Of a DNA stretch of 38,082 nucleotides, positions 2,859 to 13,872 are shown one piece after another; the stretch's first letter is position 1; each line of letters begins with the position of its first letter. Both the position numbers and the translations under genes were made by a program. The notes beneath the pieces were generated by a model. It did not search any database. It was not told where the DNA came from and saw only the letters and a list, made by a program, of their open reading frames with translations. The stretch covers positions 1 to 38,082 of the forward strand of contig CANQPJ010000020.1 of assembly GCA_947625755.1 (NCBI GenBank), given 5' to 3'. Origin of the DNA: an uncultured Lachnospiraceae bacterium. Lineage in GTDB: Bacteria > Bacillota > Clostridia > Lachnospirales > Lachnospiraceae.

Positions 2859-3833
2859 CTAATTCTGTCTTTTTATTTGCTGTTTCCGAATCAATGGAAA
2901 CAGCATTAATTCTTTTTCATCCAGATTTTCTTTATGCATATCTATTGCGGTAATTTGATTATTTTCATAGGTAATATAGTAGTAAATACCTTTATCTGCA
3001 TTGCAGCAGGATGAAAATACGGTATATTCATATTTTCCGCCATCGCAGACCACACAGCCTTTTTGTTGAAATACAGAGCCGAGAATGTGAAAGAACTGAC
3101 TGACACTTTCTTGTTCCGTATCTCCTGAAACGGAATTTAGCTTGGTAAAAGAGGCTTTCACAAAACGGGACATGGAAGATAAATCTCCCGGCATACCCAT
3201 GCCACCCATGCCTCTGCTGTATATCTGCAGTTTCAAATCCTTTGAAAAATCATTTTGAGGATTTTTTGTTGACAATCGCATGTAATTATTTAAGTTAAAA
3301 GTCTGCATATTAAAATCCGGGCTGTTGGTCAGCACGCCGATAGGATTGTCGTATATTTTAAGTCCTTCTTTTACAGATTCTACAGTAATGGATTCCTCTC
3401 TATCACTAATAATCCAGTGCAATGGCGACAATGGAAACTGTTCGCTAAACGCTATGTTCACCATGTTCATGTGTTCCAGCAACTGCCTTGCAACAGCCAC
3501 TGTGGCGCATTGTCCCAGTATCCACGGAATAAATTCAAAGGGAGCAATATTATCGACGCCTTGCTTTTTTTCTCCATAATATGCATTATCGGGAAAATTC
3601 AAACCTGCCATGCTCAATCCCTTTTCATTGGTTGCATCATAATACAGAGGATAATTTTCCGAGGTTACTGCCATTCCGATAAGCGCATAATGTGTATGCA
3701 TCTCTCCCACAGTTCGAAAAGAAAACGGATAATTCCGCGGTGTAATGGTTACCCCCTCGCCATAGGAACATTCCCAGTCAAGAGTCCGTCCAAAATAATG
3801 GTCTTTTGTTTTGAAACTTATTGCTGTGCACAT
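2859..3833 (-). CDS. bsh: Bile salt hydrolase (choloylglycine hydrolase)
   Basis: 324 aa Ntn-hydrolase that removes glycine or taurine from conjugated bile acids in the cytoplasm. After Met removal Cys2 is the nucleophile (MCTAI start). The other catalytic positions are present: R16 and D19 (GRTLDW), N79 (AGLNF), N170 (GVLTNSP) and R223 (SRFVKASF). The C-terminus (GIYYYITYENNQITAIDM) closely matches the Clostridium perfringens enzyme as I remember it, which favours bile salt hydrolase over penicillin V acylase. Start: GGAGGT sits 7 bp before the MCT codon. The frame is open for 69 more codons upstream, but these overlap tspO and would bury the nucleophile. It lies 38 bp behind tspO, probably in one operon. 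Confidence 0.92.
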   Translation of the reverse strand: MCTAISFKTKDHYFGRTLDWECSYGEGVTITPRNYPFSFRTVGEMHTHYALIGMAVTSENYPLYYDATNEKGLSMAGLNFPDNAYYGEKKQGVDNIAPFEFIPWILGQCATVAVARQLLEHMNMVNIAFSEQFPLSPLHWIISDREESITVESVKEGLKIYDNPIGVLTNSPDFNMQTFNLNNYMRLSTKNPQNDFSKDLKLQIYSRGMGGMGMPGDLSSMSRFVKASFTKLNSVSGDTEQESVSQFFHILGSVFQQKGCVVCDGGKYEYTVFSSCCNADKGIYYYITYENNQITAIDMHKENLDEKELMLFPLIRKQQIKRQN

Positions 3834-3871
3834 ATTTGGTACCTCCGGATGCTTTTTTGTGTTATTGTCCC

Positions 3872-4342
3872 CTAATTTAAGTACCATATTCCAAAATTTA
3901 AGTAACCTGCGAATGTTACCCATATCAGATAAGGAATCATAAGATAGCCCGCAGTTTTTGATATACGGTAAAATCGCAATGTTGTAATTACAATTAATAT
4001 CCAAAGCAATATCAGCCATAAAAAAGAGAACAGATACCATTGAAAGTCAAAGAACAAGATAGACCAGAGAAAGTTCACCATAAGCTGGTAAGCATAAACA
4101 GCTATTGCTTTGTCTATCTGCTCTCGTCTTGCCCCCGAGGACAGTACCAGATAAGAGGCTATTCCCATTAAAATATAAAGAATGGTCCAAACGACTGGAA
4201 ACAGCCAGCCCGGCGGGGATAGTGGTGGTTTATTTAATTCCCCGAATATTTTCATTCCCCCACCGGATAAAAGTGCAGAGAGACCACCAACAATCAGTGG
4301 CACTAATATGCATTTTATTAATAATACTTTTTGAGACTTCAT
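3872..4342 (-). CDS. tspO: TspO/MBR family membrane protein
   Basis: 156 aa, five predicted membrane helices. It is the bacterial homologue of the mitochondrial translocator protein, which binds porphyrins and, in eukaryotes, cholesterol. Family signatures: KPPLSPPGWLFPVVWTILY at ~38-56, an aromatic NFLWSILFF segment near 90 and the C-terminal PYLIWVTFAGYLNFGIWYLN. GGAGGT lies 7 bp before the ATG. It is placed 38 bp upstream of bile salt hydrolase and 53 bp downstream of the GT-C gene, all on one strand. Pairing a sterol/porphyrin-binding membrane protein with a bile-acid enzyme suggests a link to bile handling. That is inference. Confidence 0.93.
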   Translation of the reverse strand: MKSQKVLLIKCILVPLIVGGLSALLSGGGMKIFGELNKPPLSPPGWLFPVVWTILYILMGIASYLVLSSGARREQIDKAIAVYAYQLMVNFLWSILFFDFQWYLFSFLWLILLWILIVITTLRFYRISKTAGYLMIPYLIWVTFAGYLNFGIWYLN

Positions 4343-4395: not shown

Positions 4396-5853
4396 TTATT
4401 TTGATTTTTTTCTCATGAGAATTAAATTGTTTGTGGTGAAAATACGTTCATAGTTTTGATAGATGAATGTATCCATGTTATTTTTTTTACCATCAGTTAA
4501 GACAATATATTTTGCTTTCAGCGACATAATATCTTTTTCAAAGTTCTTTCGCATTTCATCACTGGCACTACATTGAAAATCCTGTAACACAAAATTTTTG
4601 TAGCATGGTACAATATCTGCGGACAGATAAAATAGTGGGTCTGTGTTATATGCGATAACATATTTCCTATCTGACACAGGTATCTTTTCTTTAATCTGCT
4701 CTGCCTCTTTAATAAATACATGCGCAGAATTGTCTTTGTATAATTTGTAGTTATCTCTGTATGCCATGGCATTTTTATACAATATTATAATGATGCTGAA
4801 TATCAACAGTATCATTGCAAATTTTTTCACTTTCTTGTCTTTTAGCATATATGGAAACAGTCCTATCGCTACAACTAAAATTGGAATATATATAATCAAA
4901 TAATGAGTGTACATCTGGCTTTGTAATTGAAATCCAATTGCGGTAATGGAAGCAAGCAATACGCATATTGCAACTCTTCTTTCCTGCTGATTTTTAATAA
5001 TGTTGTAAACAGCAATAATTACAGCGACAATAAACAAACCTAAATAACCAATTACATGTTTTATTATTCCAATTACTGTAACATTAGCCGTCATGTTTAA
5101 TGCGTACTTAATGTTGTACAAAATTGTTCCATATAACATATCGTAAACTGCATCATTACAATAGAAATATATTAAGAACGGAAGGCAGCATATTGTAGCA
5201 CCAATGATAAAAAACAGGATATTTTTTATCAAATTTACGCCCTGTTTTTCCTTTATCAGCGTAATAAATCCAACCAAGATAAAAATACATAAAGGTAATG
5301 CGTTGGTCAATCTTGTAAGTGTACACACCATAAAAGTAATGCCATAAAAAAATGAATACCATACATTATGCTCTTTAGAAATATGAGATGATTTTATATA
5401 TTTTATGGCAAAGTAAATACTCCACATTAAAAATGGAAGGCAGTAGGTCTCTGTTATATTGCTAAAACCATAAACCCTGATTATTAATAAAAATGCCAAT
5501 GTTAGTATAATACTCATTTTTCTATTGAAATAAAATTTAAAAATTTTATTAATAGCTATTAGGGTAAATGCCATAAGGAGAGTGAGAACCCAAAAATAAC
5601 CGGTTTCACTATTATGGAACAGGGAAACAAACCAGTTGATTAATACAGTGACGGGACCTTTATGGTCAAAGCAGTCCTTATAAGGAATAAGTCCTTTCTG
5701 GGTAAATTTTCCCATGCAGAGAAATACATTGGAATCCAGATTAAAATTAATATGGTGTTTTAATAAATGTAACCAGTTAAGACAGCTTAATTTATATATA
5801 AATGCGAATCCTGTGAGCGTTAAGTATTCTATTATGTTTCTTTTTCTATTCAT
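4396..5853 (-). CDS. Polytopic GT-C (GT39/PMT-like) glycosyltransferase
   Basis: 485 aa with about ten membrane helices. The first extracytoplasmic loop holds the acidic residue expected of GT-C enzymes (FNLDSNVF, ~40) and the PYKDCFDHKGPVTVLINW signature (~58-75) of this PMT-like bacterial group. Such enzymes use polyprenyl-phosphate sugars to glycosylate cell-surface polymers or proteins outside the membrane. The last ~120 residues form a soluble domain ending in a basic tail. It lies 22 bp behind the GT2 gene, which would make the lipid-linked donor, so the pair forms one module. Acceptor unknown. Confidence 0.85.
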   Translation of the reverse strand: MNRKRNIIEYLTLTGFAFIYKLSCLNWLHLLKHHINFNLDSNVFLCMGKFTQKGLIPYKDCFDHKGPVTVLINWFVSLFHNSETGYFWVLTLLMAFTLIAINKIFKFYFNRKMSIILTLAFLLIIRVYGFSNITETYCLPFLMWSIYFAIKYIKSSHISKEHNVWYSFFYGITFMVCTLTRLTNALPLCIFILVGFITLIKEKQGVNLIKNILFFIIGATICCLPFLIYFYCNDAVYDMLYGTILYNIKYALNMTANVTVIGIIKHVIGYLGLFIVAVIIAVYNIIKNQQERRVAICVLLASITAIGFQLQSQMYTHYLIIYIPILVVAIGLFPYMLKDKKVKKFAMILLIFSIIIILYKNAMAYRDNYKLYKDNSAHVFIKEAEQIKEKIPVSDRKYVIAYNTDPLFYLSADIVPCYKNFVLQDFQCSASDEMRKNFEKDIMSLKAKYIVLTDGKKNNMDTFIYQNYERIFTTNNLILMRKKSK

Positions 5854-5875
5854 AATGAATCTCCTATATACCTTT

Positions 5876-6592
5876 TTACATTTTGCTTAATGTTTTGTTG
5901 ATTGCTTTAAAGTCTTTTAATGCCTGTCTGCCGATTCCAAAAATTCTTTTCATATTAATGGAATTTACACCACCTTGTCTCGGGCGAAAAGTGATAGGAA
6001 TATATTTTACCCTGCAGCCTTTCTTTGCATAGATAACGGATATGATAACGTTGGAAAGGTTAAAATCATTCGGCACCAGTCCTATATATTGTTTCAGTGT
6101 TGAGCACTTCATTATCCTGAACGGCGTATTGGCATCCGTTACTGTCACCCCAAAACATATCCTGATAACCAGTTTTAACGTCTTGGTTACAAATACTCTG
6201 GAACCGCCGTCCTGTCTGCCGTTACGCCAGCCAATTACCATATCGTGATTTTCCTTTTCCTCCCAGAACTGTGGAAATTCCTCCGGCAGAGTCTGACCAT
6301 CCGAATCTGTCTGGAAGATATAATCCGCACCCTGTTCCAGTGCATAGTTGTATCCGTATAATACGGTTGCTCCATGTCCACTGTTTGGTTTTGTAATAGG
6401 TATAAATTTGGGTCTGTTTTTTGCATACTCCTTCATGATTGCATAAGTGTTGTCTTTGCTTCCATCATCAACAATCACCAGCCTGCTTTCTTCCCCATAC
6501 TTTTCCACGATAGGATACCAGTCGTCAATGACAGCTCCTATGTTTGCTTCCTCATTGTACGCAGGTATTACAATGTACAACTTGTCGTTCAT
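5876..6592 (-). CDS. GT2 glycosyltransferase, dolichyl/polyprenyl-phosphate sugar synthase type
   Basis: 238 aa GT-A fold enzyme. Motifs: VIPAYNEE at the N-terminus, the nucleotide-binding VIVDDGSKDNT (~38-48), the metal-binding TDSDGQ (~95-100) and RPRQGG near 205. It has no C-terminal membrane helices, so it resembles DPM1-like synthases that load a sugar on undecaprenyl phosphate for a membrane GT-C partner, here the next gene. GGAGG sits 8 bp before the ATG. The start lies only 26 bp from a 25-bp inversion site (6619-6643), so its promoter probably depends on the orientation of the recombinase segment. Confidence 0.9.
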   Translation of the reverse strand: MNDKLYIVIPAYNEEANIGAVIDDWYPIVEKYGEESRLVIVDDGSKDNTYAIMKEYAKNRPKFIPITKPNSGHGATVLYGYNYALEQGADYIFQTDSDGQTLPEEFPQFWEEKENHDMVIGWRNGRQDGGSRVFVTKTLKLVIRICFGVTVTDANTPFRIMKCSTLKQYIGLVPNDFNLSNVIISVIYAKKGCRVKYIPITFRPRQGGVNSINMKRIFGIGRQALKDFKAINKTLSKM

Positions 6593-6618
6593 TTCAAATC
6601 CTCCATCTTAAGTATTTT

Positions 6619-6643
6619 TTCGCAGAATACCTAATTCTGCGAA
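6619..6643 (-). repeat. Left inversion site
   Basis: Two perfect 10-bp arms, TTCGCAGAAT and ATTCTGCGAA, flank an asymmetric 5-bp centre (ACCTA on this strand). Arms plus short centre is the layout of a tyrosine-recombinase crossover site. The same site occurs in opposite orientation at 7728-7752, and identity extends to 31 bp in all. The last codons of the recombinase (LSQN and TAG) lie inside this site, so inversion would preserve the protein end. Confidence 0.85.
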
Positions 6644-7572
6644 AGTGCCTTCAGCTTGTTCATCTGCTTTTTTTTAAACTCGAAAGAAGAATGAAAATAG
6701 TACTCCATTGTGATTTTAATATCTGCATGTCCAAGAATTTCGCTCAAAGTTTTTATATCGCATCCGGCAGTAATACATCTGGTTGCAAAGGTATGACGCA
6801 GACAATGAAAGTTTTTGTATGAAACTCCGCATTCGTTTAATGTCCTCTTATATGCATACTGGAGTGTCCTTGGATCCAGTGGTTTTTCATAACTGTTTGT
6901 GAATAAAAAACGCTGGTTTATTTCACATGAATATAGTTTCTTAAAATGTTGAACAATGAAGGAAGGAATTGGAATTACTCTGACAGATGAAGAACTTTTT
7001 GGATTCGTGATAACCAGTTGTGTTTTTTTGTGATTTTGGTCATTTTTTATTTCCTGTCTCTGAACAGACTTGTCGATGGAGACTGCACCATAATTGAAAT
7101 TAAAGTCGTTCCATTTTAAAGCGCATATTTCTCCGATTCTCAAACCGGAATATAATGCCAACAGGATTGCACTGTTGTATAAATCTATATTATGGTTTAT
7201 ATACATCTCCAGTTTTTTTTGCTCTTTGGAATTAAAGACTTCAACCCGTGGTTTAGTTTTTGATAATCCCGGTCTGACGTAAAGATGATTGGATAATAAC
7301 TGATGGCGATAACCATAATCGCAGCTGTTATTTACTATCATTAATATATTTCTTTTACTACTGGAAGATAGTGACTTTGTATAACTCCCTTCTAAAAGTG
7401 TCTTTCTGAAATCTTTAATAATATCCTCTGTTATATCCGGGCAGAGAATATTTTTAAAATATGGTTCAATATGGTTTTTAATCAGCTTTTCGTATTTCAT
7501 GTAAGTAGATGTGGATACTTCCGGCTGCTTATCTTGCAGCCATTCGTAAATTAATTTCGTGAATTTTTTCAT
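6631..7572 (-). CDS. Tyrosine recombinase (probable DNA invertase)
   Basis: 313 aa. An N-terminal SAM-like core-binding domain (~1-105) precedes the catalytic domain with R145 (SGLRIGE), K192 (TNPKSSSS), H256 and R259 (HCLRH), H282 (LGHAD) and nucleophile Y292 (TMEYYFH). All catalytic positions are present, so it should be active. GGAGGG lies 6 bp before the ATG. The stop codon lies inside the left crossover site, and a matching inverted site lies 155 bp upstream of the start. This arrangement fits a phase-variation invertase acting on its own segment rather than a prophage integrase. The 38-bp gap to GT2 with no terminator means read-through from this gene could also feed the operon in the present orientation. 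Confidence 0.9.
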   Translation of the reverse strand: MKKFTKLIYEWLQDKQPEVSTSTYMKYEKLIKNHIEPYFKNILCPDITEDIIKDFRKTLLEGSYTKSLSSSSKRNILMIVNNSCDYGYRHQLLSNHLYVRPGLSKTKPRVEVFNSKEQKKLEMYINHNIDLYNSAILLALYSGLRIGEICALKWNDFNFNYGAVSIDKSVQRQEIKNDQNHKKTQLVITNPKSSSSVRVIPIPSFIVQHFKKLYSCEINQRFLFTNSYEKPLDPRTLQYAYKRTLNECGVSYKNFHCLRHTFATRCITAGCDIKTLSEILGHADIKITMEYYFHSSFEFKKKQMNKLKALSQN

Positions 7573-7624
7573 TGTTTATCCCTCCAATATTTAATTTTGC
7601 AGTTATGATTTTGAATAAAAAAGA

Positions 7625-7653
7625 TTGTTATGTTAAGCTGTTTCTGGTATACT
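7625..7653 (+). promoter_or_regulatory. Strong promoter inside the invertible segment, facing right
   Basis: TTGTTA (7625-7630), a 17-bp spacer and TATACT (7648-7653) make a good vegetative promoter on the plus strand. It is divergent from the recombinase and would leave the segment through the right site at 7728. Inversion would turn it toward the glycosyltransferase operon. Confidence 0.65.
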
Positions 7654-7677
7654 GTTTTCAGTCTACAAATTGAAAAC
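7654..7677. promoter_or_regulatory. Inverted repeat at the start site of the invertible promoter
   Basis: GTTTTCA (7654-7660) and TGAAAAC (7671-7677) are perfect 7-bp inverted arms 10 bp apart. The first arm abuts the -10 box, so the expected transcription start lies inside the repeat. This is a natural operator position for a repressor. An early transcript hairpin is an alternative. Confidence 0.45.
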
Positions 7678-7727
7678 AATACAGGCATAAAGTTAGTTGT
7701 TTTCGCTTGATTTTACAATTTTTTACT

Positions 7728-7752
7728 TTCGCAGAATTAGGTATTCTGCGAA
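7728..7752 (+). repeat. Right inversion site
   Basis: Exact inverted copy of the site at 6619-6643: arms TTCGCAGAAT and ATTCTGCGAA with centre TAGGT. The flanks ACT on one side and a run of five A on the other are also shared. Eleven bases further right, ATCCGT and ACGGAT (7764-7778) form another small perfect palindrome with no copy at the left site. It might be an accessory recombinase or regulator site. Confidence 0.85.
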
Positions 7753-8093
7753 AAATAATGACCATCCGTCAAACGGATAAATCCTACTGTACTTACATAA
7801 TATTAATCTTCCCAAAAGTGCTTGTTTCCATACTTATACTTTAAGTTTTTGTGCGTATTGAATATCATAAGTGTACTTTTTTCTTTGAGATATTCATTTA
7901 TAAGTTCGGCTTGAAAATCTCATTATAAATAAAAGGTAATTAACACACATAGATACTTGCGCAGGGCTTATGAAAATGCTAAAATAAAAAAGAATTAAAA
8001 CAGACATTTTGAAATATGCAATAATACCAACCTATACGGCGGGGAGACTCCCCGCCCTTTACTTTATTTTCATCAGGTGCAAAGTATAGTTGC
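7753..8093. other. Non-coding region between the inversion site and the ATPase gene
   Basis: 341 bp without a supportable gene. It holds the ATCCGT/ACGGAT palindrome at 7764-7778, AT-rich sequence, a possible promoter (TTGAAA 8009-8014, 18 bp, TATACG 8033-8038) and the GC-rich hairpin at 8038-8056. I looked for a manganese (yybP-ykoY) riboswitch, since that class often precedes such ATPases, and did not recognise one. Confidence 0.45.
8038..8070 (+). terminator. GC-rich intrinsic terminator or attenuator before the ATPase gene
   Basis: GGCGGGGA (8038-8045) pairs with TCCCCGCC (8049-8056) around GAC and is followed by a T-rich tail (CTTTACTTTATTTT, 8057-8070). It would stop transcripts from the rightward invertible promoter before the ATPase. 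Because it lies only 24 bp before the annotated ATG, it could also act as an attenuator of the ATPase itself. Confidence 0.65.
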
Positions 8094-10562
8094 ATGAGTC
8101 ATAATCAAAACATTCAGGTGAAGCATATGAAAAAGAAAGATATAAGAAACGAAGAAATAAAACGGCGTCCGACGACCCGGTACCAGGCAGATATTCACAC
8201 AGGATTGAACAAGGAACAGGTACAGGAATATGTAAGAAACGGATGGATTAACAGACCGGTGGAACCACCATCGAAGACTGTTTCGGAAATTATAAAGAGC
8301 AATCTTTTTACCTATTTTAATTTGGTGTTTGCAGTGCTGGCGGCGCTGTTGATTATTGTGGGTTCCTTCCGGAGCCTGACTTTTCTTCCTGTTATTATTG
8401 CCAATCTTTTTATTGGTATTATACAGGAAATCCGCGCAAAGAATGTGCTGGACAAATTATCGGTTCTTCATGCGCCAAAGGCTTTGGCTGTACGTGATGG
8501 GAAGACCAGAGTAATTCCGGCAGAGAAACTTGTGCTGGATGATATTGTTATTTTTAAGGCAGGAAATCAAATCTGTGCGGATGCGGTAGTGCTGGAAGGC
8601 GAGATTTCAGCGAATGAATCACTGCTGACCGGAGAGTCGGATGAAATTGCAAAGAGACCGGGAGATACATTGATGTCAGGCAGTTTTGTGGTCTCCGGAC
8701 AGTGTTATGCAAGACTGAATCAGGTGGGGGAAGATTCCTATATTTCCAAACTTACATTGGAAGCCAAAACCATTAATGAAGAAGAGCAGTCAGAGATGAT
8801 TCGTATTTTGGACAAGTTAGTCGGAGTAGTAGGAATTATGATTATTCCGATTGGGCTGATGCTTTTTGGACAGTCGTTCTTTTTGTCCCATGTCAGCTTC
8901 CGCGACAGTGTTGTGTCCATGGTGGCAGCGGTCATTGGCATGATTCCCGAAGGGCTTTATCTTTTGGCAAGCGTGGCGCTGGTTGTCAGTGTTACCCGCC
9001 TTGCTTCGAAAAAGGTTCTGGTACATGATATGAAATGTATCGAGACACTGGCAAGGGTAAATGTGCTTTGTGTGGATAAGACCGGCACCATTACTGAAAA
9101 TACCATGAAAGTAGATGGTATTGTGCCTATGGAGGACAGTGATTTGGTGACGGTTGCAGAGCTGAAAAGTCTGATTACCGATTTTGCGGCGGCTATGCCC
9201 AATGACAATATTACAATAGAAGCATTGAAAGAGCATTTTGATGAACCCGTTGTACGGGAGCCTATTTCTGTGTCTTCATTTTCCTCTGCATATAAATATT
9301 CCGGCGCGGCATTTACAGATGCATCTTATGTTCTGGGTGCGCCTGAGTTTGTGTTGAGAGAGGATTATGAACAATATAAAGAAGAAATTGAGGAATATAG
9401 TTCAGAGGGATACCGCGTACTTGTCTTTGGAATTTATGACGGTACGCCGGATGGAGGCGCATTGACAGAAAAGGTTACTCCTCTGGGACTGATTTTTCTT
9501 TCCAATCCGATACGAAAAGAAGCACCGGACATATTCCGATATTTCGCAGGTCAGGGTGTGGATATTAAAGTAATTTCCGGAGATAATCCGGTCACGGTTT
9601 CACAGGTTGCCCTCATGGCAGGAATAGAAAATGCAGAAAACTATATTGATGCATCTACTCTGCAGACAGAGGAGGAAATACGTGATGCTGTTTTGCGATA
9701 TACGGTGTTTGGACGTGTCACTCCGGACCAGAAAAGACTGTTTGTGCGCGCGTTAAAAGATGCGGGACGCACGGTTGCCATGACCGGAGACGGTGTCAAT
9801 GATGTTCTGGCATTAAAGGACGCAGACTGTTCTATTGCTATGGCATCCGGAAGTGATGCGGCGGCTCAGGCATCCCAGCTGGTATTGCTGGAGTCCAACT
9901 TTGCATGTCTGCCTCCTGTTGTTATGGAGGGCAGGCGGGTGGTAAACAACATAGAGCGTTCTGCCAGCCTGTTTTTGGTAAAAAACATATTTTCCTTTTT
10001 ACTGGCTGTATTTTCAGTATGCTTTATGATAAACTATCCATTAGAGCCCTCGCAGGTTTCTCTGATTAGCAGTTTTACCATAGGCGTGCCTGCCTTTTTC
10101 CTTGCGCTTCAGCCGAACAAAAATATGATAGAGGGGCACTTTCTTACCAATGTGCTAATCAAGGCATTGCCGGCGGGTATTACAGACTTTTTGGTGGTGG
10201 GAGCTTTGGTAGTATTTGGGCAGACCTTCGGGGTGAACGCCAAAGATATTTCCACTGCATGTACCATGCTTCTTGCCATTGTCGGATTTATGATTTTATA
10301 CAATATCAGTAAACCAATGAATATACTGCGATGGTGTGTCTGGGCAGGAAGTATGATAGGACTTCTGGCTTGCAGTATTTTTCTTGGAAATCTGTTTGCA
10401 ATCGGCTCGATGTCCACAAGGTGCATTATGCTGTTTGTTGTATTTGCAATTATTACCGAACCGGTACTGCGGTACAGCACAATACTGATTGAACATATTG
10501 GCAGGGGAATTAAGAAAAAATATCAAAAAAGAAATAAAAAAAGAAATCAAAAAAGAAAATAA
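8094..10562 (+). CDS. P-type cation-transporting ATPase (P2-like, CtpE/YoaB type)
   Basis: 822 aa integral membrane pump. Motifs: TGES actuator loop (179-182), PEGL in transmembrane helix 4 (285-288, the Ca2+/Mn2+-pump style IPEGL), phosphorylated D328 in DKTGT, and MTGDGVNDVLALKDAD in the HAD hinge. PEGL and the overall length point to calcium, manganese or similar ions. There is no heavy-metal CPx motif and no N-terminal metal-binding domain. The C-terminal tail is a run of Lys/Arg. ATG 8094 has only a weak ribosome binding site. ATG 8127 (MKKKDIRNEE), with AGGTGA just before it, is a reasonable alternative start. The next gene follows after 14 bp. Confidence 0.88.
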   Translation: MSHNQNIQVKHMKKKDIRNEEIKRRPTTRYQADIHTGLNKEQVQEYVRNGWINRPVEPPSKTVSEIIKSNLFTYFNLVFAVLAALLIIVGSFRSLTFLPVIIANLFIGIIQEIRAKNVLDKLSVLHAPKALAVRDGKTRVIPAEKLVLDDIVIFKAGNQICADAVVLEGEISANESLLTGESDEIAKRPGDTLMSGSFVVSGQCYARLNQVGEDSYISKLTLEAKTINEEEQSEMIRILDKLVGVVGIMIIPIGLMLFGQSFFLSHVSFRDSVVSMVAAVIGMIPEGLYLLASVALVVSVTRLASKKVLVHDMKCIETLARVNVLCVDKTGTITENTMKVDGIVPMEDSDLVTVAELKSLITDFAAAMPNDNITIEALKEHFDEPVVREPISVSSFSSAYKYSGAAFTDASYVLGAPEFVLREDYEQYKEEIEEYSSEGYRVLVFGIYDGTPDGGALTEKVTPLGLIFLSNPIRKEAPDIFRYFAGQGVDIKVISGDNPVTVSQVALMAGIENAENYIDASTLQTEEEIRDAVLRYTVFGRVTPDQKRLFVRALKDAGRTVAMTGDGVNDVLALKDADCSIAMASGSDAAAQASQLVLLESNFACLPPVVMEGRRVVNNIERSASLFLVKNIFSFLLAVFSVCFMINYPLEPSQVSLISSFTIGVPAFFLALQPNKNMIEGHFLTNVLIKALPAGITDFLVVGALVVFGQTFGVNAKDISTACTMLLAIVGFMILYNISKPMNILRWCVWAGSMIGLLACSIFLGNLFAIGSMSTRCIMLFVVFAIITEPVLRYSTILIEHIGRGIKKKYQKRNKKRNQKRK

Positions 10563-11365: not shown

Positions 11366-13872
11366 AATGACAATTCTGTTCTGTGAATCAGATCAAGCTG
11401 TAATGGTTCTCCCAATTCTACAAAATATGCGCTGTATCCGGCTACGCGTACCAGCATATCTTTGTAGTCCTCCGGAGTTTTCATTGCAGCTTTCATTGTC
11501 TCATTGCTCATAATATTAAACTGACAATGCATTCCCAGTTTTTCAAAATAGGTGTCAATAAAACCTACCATATTATTTCTTCCTTCGATACCGCGGACAC
11601 ATTCCGGAGGGAATTTCCAGTTTAACAAAGTACCGTTTGTGGCAAGACTGTGGTCAACTTTGGTTACGGAATTGGCAATGGCGGTAGGACCGTTAATGTC
11701 ATGGGATGCCAGCTGGGTATGCACCGGTCCCATATTGTCGGAGATAGCTTCGCCTGCCTTTCGTCCGTCTAATGATGCGCCAAGCCACATTCCCAATGTC
11801 ACGTTGGCATTTACCGAATATACGCCCGGGCAGAATTCTCCGCCGCGGGTATTTTTACGCCCGGATATGTTTCTGCAATAGCATTCAAACACTTCTTTGT
11901 ATAAATCATCTGCGTAATCGTCATCATTTCCGTAGTGGTGTACTTTACTGCTGTTTACCAAAGCGTACAGAGCTTCGTATCCTTCCCAGTTATGTTTGAC
12001 GGCATCTAATAATTCTTTTCCCGTAAATTTTTTCTCATCAAACACAAGCTGTTTGATTGTAGAAAGAATGTCCGTACAGGTTCCGATACCGCTTGCCTGA
12101 GGTCCGGTGAAGTTATATTTTGTACCGCCGGCATTTAAGTCCTTTCCCTGTTCAATGCAGCCCTCAAAAAATGCCGATGCAAAAGGAACAGGCTTTTGTT
12201 CTTTTTGGGTATCTTCTATCATATTTAGCTGATTACACATCAGTGTTGTCCAGTAGTGCATCTGTTTATCAAAACTTGTAAGTACCTCATCAATACTTTT
12301 AAATGTTTCCAGACTGCCGGTGTTTGGTCCCAGCTGGGAGCCGGCTCCTGCACAGTGGGAATATCTTGGACAATGTCTGCTGCAGTCGATACATCTGCCC
12401 CCATTAATGGCAAGCTCCATAATTTTTGCAATATTTATGTAAGCAGCATCATGATAACCGTATTCTTTGCCGGGCAGGTCCGGCTCTACACAGCCTACGA
12501 CTTCATAATTGCGTGCCTCTTTCAAAGTCATTCCTTTTTTCTGCATTACCTTAATTGCTACCGCATCATTGAAAAGTTTTGGATGACCGTATCCTGCACG
12601 AATACACTCCACAGCTTTTACCTTTAATTCATAAGGTGTTTCTTTATGCATCCGCACGCATACCCATGGATTCATCATTCTTGTGTGCACAGATGCTTCC
12701 AGCAGCAGAAACGTCAAATCGTTTGTGGCGTCTTTTCCGTTTTCGTCGACACCGCCGATGGTAAGGCTTTCACCGCCCCAGCCCCGACCATTTCTCAATT
12801 CAGAGCTCGTTCTGTCCTTTAGTTTGGAAGGATTGCCGGTTTTGATGTATGCGCACTCTAATAATTCGAGTGCAAAATTCTTTGAAATGGTGTTGTTTTC
12901 CATGTCTTTCTGATAAAAAGGATACAACCACTGATCCATTCGTCCGTAGGACACGGAATGTCCATTGGACTCAATCATTGTAATGGTGGTAGCAAAGTGC
13001 CATAGCTGGAGTGCCTGCCAAAACGTTTGTGGTGTACCGTCTGCTAATTGGTAACAGTTTTGGGCAATTTTATCCAGCTCTTTTTTTCTGTCAGTATCTG
13101 GTTCCGTCTGACTTTTTACCTCTGCCAGTTTTGCATATCTTTTTACATAATTGCAGGCAGCTTCCAGTTCTATTAACATTGCACGGTAATAATCATATTT
13201 ATCGTAATAATCTTTCTCGTTTTCAGACAGATGTTTCAGTTGTTCTTGGATTTCCTTAATCAATCCGACAAAACCAACTTTCATCAGTTTTTCGTAGTCC
13301 ATTACGAAATGTCCCACTCCGGCAAAATGATATAAATTCGTCATATAGATTTTTTTGCCCATTTCACTGCCTTTTTTCATCTCGTCTGTCATTCGAGATT
13401 CAAACCGGTCTGCTACGGTATTTCCTTTCCAAAACGGTAGAAGGTCTAGCAGTTCTTTCTTATCTTCGTCTGTGATGTAGAACTTGTCATGCGGTCTCTG
13501 GTCAAAGGGGTGATGCTGTAATTCATCTATTATCCAGTTTATTGAAAATTCAGGGTATATTGGAGCGGCTTTGGCAGGAGCTGCCAATTCTCCCACAAGC
13601 AGTTCATCATCATAAATGTAAATTTCCACATTTTCTAATACATTTTTCAATGCAAAAGCTGTTTTCATGGCAATGGAAGCTTCTTCATGGTCTTGATATG
13701 CCTCTGTTACCAGTCGGGCTCTTTGAATGTCGATATTAAAAGGTCTGTCCAAAAAGACCTGTCTTAATTTGTTTACCCTGTCAAATGGAGAGAAACCTTT
13801 ATGTCCTACCTGATAACCGATACCGTAGCTTTTATCAAAGGCTTCTGTTCCGCAAGCGTTTGTCCGAATCAT
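11362..13872 (-). CDS. Glycyl radical enzyme, diol-dehydratase type; candidate dihydroxypropanesulfonate dehydratase (HpfG-like)
   Basis: 836 aa from the ATG 7 bp after AGGAGG (a GTG two codons upstream overlaps that site). Residues below are numbered from the GTG. Thiyl C463 and base E465 lie in VGCVEP; the radical is on G814 (RVAGYSAYF). H190 (GVGH), H307 and S308 (ESNGHS) and D477 (GYHD, 14 after the Cys) match residues that bind the diol in clostridial glycerol dehydratase, as I remember that structure; the Tyr339 position is not conserved. The R/Q pair of isethionate lyases appears replaced by H190 and D194. An odd four-Cys patch (C496, C499, C503, C509) follows the active-site loop. Neighbouring 4-hydroxybutyrate-like and semialdehyde-like dehydrogenases and a sulfonate-type importer favour dihydroxypropanesulfonate as substrate. 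The family is certain, the substrate inferred. Confidence 0.85.
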   Translation of the reverse strand: MIRTNACGTEAFDKSYGIGYQVGHKGFSPFDRVNKLRQVFLDRPFNIDIQRARLVTEAYQDHEEASIAMKTAFALKNVLENVEIYIYDDELLVGELAAPAKAAPIYPEFSINWIIDELQHHPFDQRPHDKFYITDEDKKELLDLLPFWKGNTVADRFESRMTDEMKKGSEMGKKIYMTNLYHFAGVGHFVMDYEKLMKVGFVGLIKEIQEQLKHLSENEKDYYDKYDYYRAMLIELEAACNYVKRYAKLAEVKSQTEPDTDRKKELDKIAQNCYQLADGTPQTFWQALQLWHFATTITMIESNGHSVSYGRMDQWLYPFYQKDMENNTISKNFALELLECAYIKTGNPSKLKDRTSSELRNGRGWGGESLTIGGVDENGKDATNDLTFLLLEASVHTRMMNPWVCVRMHKETPYELKVKAVECIRAGYGHPKLFNDAVAIKVMQKKGMTLKEARNYEVVGCVEPDLPGKEYGYHDAAYINIAKIMELAINGGRCIDCSRHCPRYSHCAGAGSQLGPNTGSLETFKSIDEVLTSFDKQMHYWTTLMCNQLNMIEDTQKEQKPVPFASAFFEGCIEQGKDLNAGGTKYNFTGPQASGIGTCTDILSTIKQLVFDEKKFTGKELLDAVKHNWEGYEALYALVNSSKVHHYGNDDDYADDLYKEVFECYCRNISGRKNTRGGEFCPGVYSVNANVTLGMWLGASLDGRKAGEAISDNMGPVHTQLASHDINGPTAIANSVTKVDHSLATNGTLLNWKFPPECVRGIEGRNNMVGFIDTYFEKLGMHCQFNIMSNETMKAAMKTPEDYKDMLVRVAGYSAYFVELGEPLQLDLIHRTELSF

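Follow-up and report, generated by a model that had tools for sequence, protein, structure and literature searches.

The window (the whole 38,082-nt stretch of Lachnospiraceae DNA analysed here) contains what is probably a self-contained phase-variation switch, in which a tyrosine recombinase would flip the approximately 1.1-kb segment that carries its own gene and set an adjacent operon of two glycosyltransferase genes, GT2 and GT-C, to ON or OFF. An initial annotation of this DNA had proposed that the segment flips; comparison with relatives indicates that it is built to invert, the inversions themselves having been observed at loci other than this one.

The recombinase, its crossover sites and the glycosyltransferase operon

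The recombinase gene (positions 6631–7572, minus strand) lies within the segment, is intact and encodes a 313-aa protein with matches to the Pfam domains Phage_integrase (7.3e-28, above the cut-off) and Phage_int_SAM_3 (6e-13). Residues R145, K192, H256, R259, H282 and Y292, which we take to be the catalytic R-K-H-R-H-Y set, are invariant in all six aligned relatives, and R145 aligns with the corresponding arginine of Int. The initial description of an enzyme with all its catalytic residues was thus borne out. The catalytic domain resembles those of XerC/XerD and of Int-type relatives, presumably of the Tn1549/Tn916 kind, but no NCBIfam cut-off was reached: as regards membership in XerC/XerD or the integron integrases, the best match scored 93.4 bits against a cut-off of 220, and none of the 10 listed families passed. 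The best-scoring other recombinase of the same genome is 24% identical to the switch enzyme, and no close phage-borne relative was found in viral contigs, where the best of 37 related loci was 33% identical.

The segment is bounded by an inverted repeat of 31 nt per arm (6616–6646 and 7725–7755, 100% complementary), in agreement with the identical, oppositely oriented sites reported at the outset; the chance expectation for such a pair no more than 3 kb apart in 2.25 Mb is about 1.5e-9, assuming uniform base composition. Each copy contains a 27-nt palindrome (6618–6644 in the GT-proximal site), in which 11-bp arms, TTTCGCAGAAT and ATTCTGCGAAA, surround a 5-bp core that reads ACCTA in the GT-proximal site and its reverse complement in the distal site, the latter being as a whole the exact reverse complement of the former. 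The 5-bp asymmetric centre of the initial annotation was therefore retained, whereas its 10-bp arms proved to be 11 bp long. A search of the whole 51-contig assembly for the 25-nt site, allowing up to 3 mismatches, located it in these two places only, with neither a third copy nor an alternative junction. The recombinase had been described as enclosed by the sites, and it does lie between them, except that its last codons and TAG stop fall inside the GT-proximal site, which reads L-S-Q-N-stop. Because both sites are identical, crossover within them would leave the recombinase protein unchanged. Inverted recombination sites around the segment, as expected of an inverton, are thus present in the form of the 31-nt perfect repeat.

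GT2 (5876–6592, minus strand), a polyprenyl-phosphate sugar transferase-like glycosyltransferase, is the first gene of the putative target operon. It starts 25 nt from the palindrome and 23 nt from the 31-nt repeat, with a ribosome-binding site in those 25 nt, and its three solved relatives at E <= 1e-8 are all undecaprenyl-phosphate aminoarabinose-type sugar transferases. The second gene, GT-C (4396–5853, minus strand), encodes a membrane glycosyltransferase (Pfam PMT_2) for which no match was found among solved structures. Together, the two genes look like an operon that may serve decoration with a lipid-linked sugar. A second GT-C relative in the genome (L065; G000:C6:16517-17950) is 45% identical and has one in-frame stop codon in the match. 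Genes of the choloylglycine hydrolase family and of the TspO/MBR type (2859–4342) adjoin the operon, outside the block in common with the congener described below.

Within the genus, a recombinase at E <= 1e-60 was found in 2 of 23 genomes, one of them the window's own; the other, G021, carries at locus L018 a recombinase 88% identical to that of the window. At L018 the sites, recombinase, GT2 and GT-C recur in identical orientation, at what is otherwise a different locus. The DNA of window positions 4404–7755 (about 3.4 kb) matches L018 at 88.4%, and the only other matches between the window and the 11.3-kb L018 stretch are those of the sites to each other, to which a longer stretch of the L018 contig adds three short stray matches of 23–35 nt. 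The homology extends from the end of GT-C to the distal site's outer edge, so that the switch and the operon constitute a single unit, kept together at two places. This comparison supports the glycosyltransferase operon as the target, as had been suggested initially. The 27-nt palindromes are identical in the two species, while the surrounding block differs by about 12%, and the perfect repeat is 31 nt long at each locus, with limits that differ slightly between the two. The dN/dS values relative to L018 (0.12 for the recombinase, 0.06 for GT2 and 0.24 for GT-C) reveal purifying selection on all three genes.

Besides window/L018 (at 7755), the distal site's outer edge also marks the end of cross-species homology in L068/L232 (L068:8110) and L098/L158 (L098:6567), as if the site bounded a putative mobile unit; in L070/L230/L231 the homology does not stop there.

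Promoter-like sequences and the assembled orientation

A promoter-like sequence, TTGTTA-17-TATACT with a TG before the -10 (7625–7653, plus strand), points away from both the recombinase and GT2 as assembled, and L018 has the same hexamers and spacing. Scored with self-built weights based on the sigma-70 consensus, this outward promoter reached a z of 3.2 in the window and 2.7 in the G021 copy, the inward value in the window being 0.1. The same asymmetry was found across the family: in the gap between the recombinase start and the upstream site, the best sigma-70-like promoter lay on average 3.29 SD above shuffles in the outward direction and 0.01 in the inward direction (51 of the 52 repeat-flanked loci described below; L077, with a 27-bp gap, was dropped), and neither these loci nor the window showed a clear promoter reading inward to the recombinase. 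The outward promoter exceeded the inward one in 48 of the 51 loci, compared with 13 of 29 relatives without a site pair enclosing less than 2 kb, a control scored over a fixed 400-bp stretch that excludes 6 of the 35 such loci (those starting within 400 bp of a contig edge) and includes L070 and L071, where site pairs are present, as well as five loci with larger repeats (L071 among them).

A plain consensus scan of the region listed 5 promoter-like sites against a shuffle mean of 10.3, and none on the minus strand between GT2 and 7607. As this result is not above chance, the case for the window promoter is founded on its conservation and on the family pattern, and it is on sequence criteria that an outward-reading promoter, the other element expected of an inverton, is placed within the segment. 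Terminator-like sites are more frequent in the region than expected by chance (6 against 1.3). One such hairpin (8038–8056, plus strand) lies downstream of the outward promoter as assembled, before a P-type ATPase gene, and another (7762–7780, minus strand) lies outside the segment, facing inward. In L018, the outward promoter faces the 3' end of a gene convergent with it.

Eight nearer relatives have instead an outward promoter of the form TTGATT-17-TAGAAT (TATAAT in L069), 2–11 bp from the site. Its TTGATT -35 is retained in the window and L018, where its -10 seems to have been lost, so that these two may depend on the TTGTTA promoter. An imperfect inverted repeat, GTATACTG-TTTT-CAGTCTAC (7647–7666), which is identical in L018, spans the -10 of the outward promoter and could possibly be an operator for the recombinase or for a regulator.

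Control of the operon by the segment had been proposed initially with its mode unstated. Because the segment promoter faces away from the operon, the assembled orientation is probably OFF for the glycosyltransferase genes, or allows recombinase read-through only. In the proposed mechanism, the recombinase would bind both palindromic sites and invert the 1.1-kb segment holding its own gene, which would survive in either orientation because each of the two identical sites supplies the stop codon. A sigma-70-type promoter upstream of the recombinase would read outward through the distal site. As assembled, it would fire toward the terminator-like hairpin and away from GT2 and GT-C (OFF, bar possible recombinase read-through); after inversion it would stand beside GT2, the site hairpin becoming part of the leader, and both GT2 and GT-C would be transcribed (ON).

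Relatives, inversion and alternative readings

Recombinase relatives at E <= 1e-35 were found in at least 64 of 299 family genomes, the window's own included, a lower bound with up to 7 candidates scored per genome. At the order level, closer relatives (E <= 1e-75) were present in at least 3 of 392 genomes, again counting the window's own and with up to 5 candidates scored per genome. Altogether, 87 loci were examined, namely the window and 86 relatives' loci (all listed matches plus the G021 copy). By the scoring used here, an inverted repeat flanks the recombinase in 57 of them and encloses less than 2 kb in 52; of the 35 lacking a repeat pair within 2 kb, 6 begin within 400 bp of a contig edge. 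No inverted repeat longer than 14 nt was found in the control set of 20 GT-C gene loci (L048–L067), nor one longer than 13 nt at the 13 loci where the same genome has other recombinase matches (L002–L014). L072, at 42% identity, has no recognisable site pair. The recombinase relatives form a common class of such switches in the Lachnospiraceae. In G127, the switch lies, with further DNA, inside a second and larger inverted repeat (L071:10365-10503 / 13005-13143, 127 of 139 nt).

Site arms across the family are mostly of the TTTCGYAGA type, and the core is the most variable part between loci. Within a locus, the two cores differ at 2 of 253 positions, the inner arms at 18 of 500 and the outer arms at 118 of 597 (50 of the 52 loci, L118 and L141 being dropped for a weak palindrome), figures that are biased to matching pairs, since sites were found by similarity, and that for the outer arms are inflated where the repeat ends. 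A core that is alike within a locus and variable between loci is what would be expected of a strand-exchange overlap.

Relative to the neighbouring genes, 27 of the 52 repeat-flanked loci are co-directional (OFF-like), 5 are divergent (ON-like), 13 are both and 7 neither, the window being counted as both owing to the ATPase. The nearest gene on the promoter side is convergent with the promoter in 24 of the 27 co-directional loci. Pfam analysis of 30 neighbour genes (27 from the 52 repeat-flanked loci and 3 from L159–L161) gave no match for 3 and matches only below the curated cut-off for 2 (L087 and L088). The neighbours are of surface and regulatory types, including TadZ, isopeptide pilin, BspA-type repeats, Ig-like proteins, GT2, UDP-GlcNAc 2-epimerase, PP2C, a response regulator, HA-repeat helicases and TnpB-like proteins; judging by position, each would be the target of its switch.

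Genes of the TnpB/Cas12f type adjoin the switch in seven loci (L086:6923-8362, L092:3985-5340, L104:6576-7925, L126:6534-7904, L159:3917-5296, L160:2016-3383 and L161:6629-7996), and all seven have a TNB domain. Inspected by eye for what are presumably the RuvC catalytic motifs, L086, L092, L104 and L126 seem to be without the catalytic acidic residues, in which these four would resemble TldR repressors; the best solved-structure matches cover the C-terminal part only.

Inversion of the segment was observed in several of these relatives. L098 and L158 come from congeneric species and have a TadZ-like neighbour gene; one flank is collinear over 2.6 kb at 92% identity, and the recombinase segment is reversed, with its breakpoints at the sites. 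Beyond the other site the two loci are unlike each other. In another genus, a TnpB-like gene stands beside the switch in four loci of three genomes, divergent from the recombinase in L086 and L160 and co-directional with it in L159 and L161. The flank is collinear and the segment reversed between L159 and L160, whereas L086 represents a homologous target and not the same locus, because it has no flank in common with L159 and L160 beside the switch (blastn). Furthermore, the first 100 nt of the L160 contig repeat, exactly and in reverse complement, the site at the other end of the segment together with 72 nt of its flank. The alternative junction thus occurs in the same assembly, and this contig end is what an assembler yields when both orientations are present. 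Helicase-type targets are likewise found divergent (L113) and co-directional (L111, L134 and L135).

One fixed orientation in all relatives, which the initial annotation had named as evidence against a switch, was found in the near subclade and not in the wider family, where both orientations occur (L098/L158, L086 and L160 versus L159 and L161, and the L160 contig end). At 46% identity or more, all eight loci that could be judged (the window, L018, L068, L069, L070, L071, L186 and L231) are co-directional; L230 and L232, which end near a contig edge, are collinear with L070 and L068, respectively. No flipped copy of the window locus was found, the window and L018 (2 of 2 genomes) showing one orientation, and none of the near-subclade loci was found flipped in the genera of G127, G245 and G294 (a single genome in the last case). 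In the genus of G245, the sites of the relatives are degraded and the three loci compared are collinear; the switch of that genus may be locked.

These data bear on other readings of the window. The single orientation in both species and the degraded sites and collinear loci of the G245 genus would agree with a decayed or locked switch, whose genes are intact but whose flipping has been lost; this is decidedly improbable for the window, since both species have the same perfect palindromes and purifying selection acts on the recombinase. The assembled orientation might instead be ON, with recombinase, GT2 and GT-C on one transcript from a recombinase promoter that inversion would cut. The recombinase and GT2 are indeed co-directional with no terminator-like site listed between them, and this layout dominates the family, but such a reading is unlikely in view of the missing inward promoter signal (mean z 0.01) beside a strong outward promoter, and of the convergent genes on the promoter side of most co-directional loci, an arrangement that is sensible only if the segment flips.

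A small mobile element, consisting of a tyrosine recombinase with terminal inverted repeats that transposed in front of GT2 by chance, would account for the homology edge at the distal site in window/L018, for the similar edges in L068/L232 and L098/L158, and for the presence of the unit at different loci in two species. It is nevertheless very unlikely, as the additional copies or stray sites expected of an insertion-sequence-like element are not found in the genome, GT2 and GT-C stay with the unit, with the same site adjoining GT2 in both species, and other genera show in-place inversion of the segment with respect to one conserved flank; a simple mobile element was consequently rejected as the main reading. 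Least probable of all is a two-way switch driving the P-type ATPase as assembled and the glycosyltransferase operon when flipped. The ATPase gene, at 8094, is co-directional with the outward promoter and 338 bp beyond the distal site, but the hairpin at 8038–8056 intervenes and the same side in L018 holds the 3' end of a convergent gene; besides, the ATPase is present in 18 of the 23 genus genomes, the window's included, and no DNA homology to the switch was found beside it in its three closest matches. The ATPase was therefore discarded as main target. The reading preferred here remains a segment that, by flipping, would bring its promoter to face GT2 and GT-C.

Implications and comparison with known systems

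It is possible, although we put it at somewhat less than even, that these loci represent transferable self-contained switches: a lineage of tyrosine recombinases across the Lachnospiraceae that carries its two sites and an outward promoter, is usually found OFF, travels together with its controlled operon as a unit bounded by the distal site, and has been independently joined to genes for glycans, pili, adhesins, helicases and RNA-guided TnpB-like proteins. If the switch proposal holds, a compact module of recombinase, two sites and outward promoter makes an adjacent operon a heritable on/off trait, and is recognisable by sequence alone across a major gut family (flanking repeats in 52 of 87 loci). 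Phase-variable surface genes would then be predictable without reads, with assembled genomes mostly displaying the OFF state. In the bacterium studied here, only some of the cells would then carry the surface glycan produced by GT2 and GT-C, with possible consequences for phage or host recognition.

Invertible DNA with an adjoining recombinase has been described in gut bacteria. Inverton group 139 and tyrosine-type invertase group 35 are mostly from Clostridia, with a recombinase adjoining or overlapping the invertible DNA (PMC11892184, available text), and the family described here may overlap these groups, to which it is likened by description. That text mentions for group 139 neither a recombinase inside its own segment nor a promoter facing away from it, both of which are features of the present family. 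The available portions of the open-licence literature gave no description of an invertible promoter segment that contains its own tyrosine recombinase. As regards the TnpB-like neighbours, hin serine invertases lie beside most csrA-tldR loci according to the accessible part of PMC13418256, a possible parallel to the TnpB-like genes beside tyrosine-recombinase switches.

The C. difficile cmr switch, which is RecV-dependent, has inverted repeats and a promoter in the ON orientation (PMC8844915, in the portion available), and shares with the window the location of the promoter within the invertible segment. A difference, as far as that portion goes, is that one RecV serves several sequences, whereas the recombinase here appears to serve its own flanking pair, the genome holding no other site. 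The two enzymes are of one type: the recombinase of the window and RecV of Clostridioides difficile are both tyrosine recombinases.

In the Hin/fljBA switch of Salmonella, a promoter in the segment reads out into the neighbouring operon. Hin is named in the available excerpt of PMC5903667 as a recombinase located inside its own invertible segment, and the recombinase gene here likewise lies inside the segment to be inverted. Unlike the enzyme of the window, Hin is a serine recombinase regulated by an enhancer. The window differs further in that its promoter is divergent from the recombinase and that a crossover site supplies the recombinase stop codon. Should the proposal hold, the segment would be a minimal tyrosine-recombinase analogue of the Hin switch.
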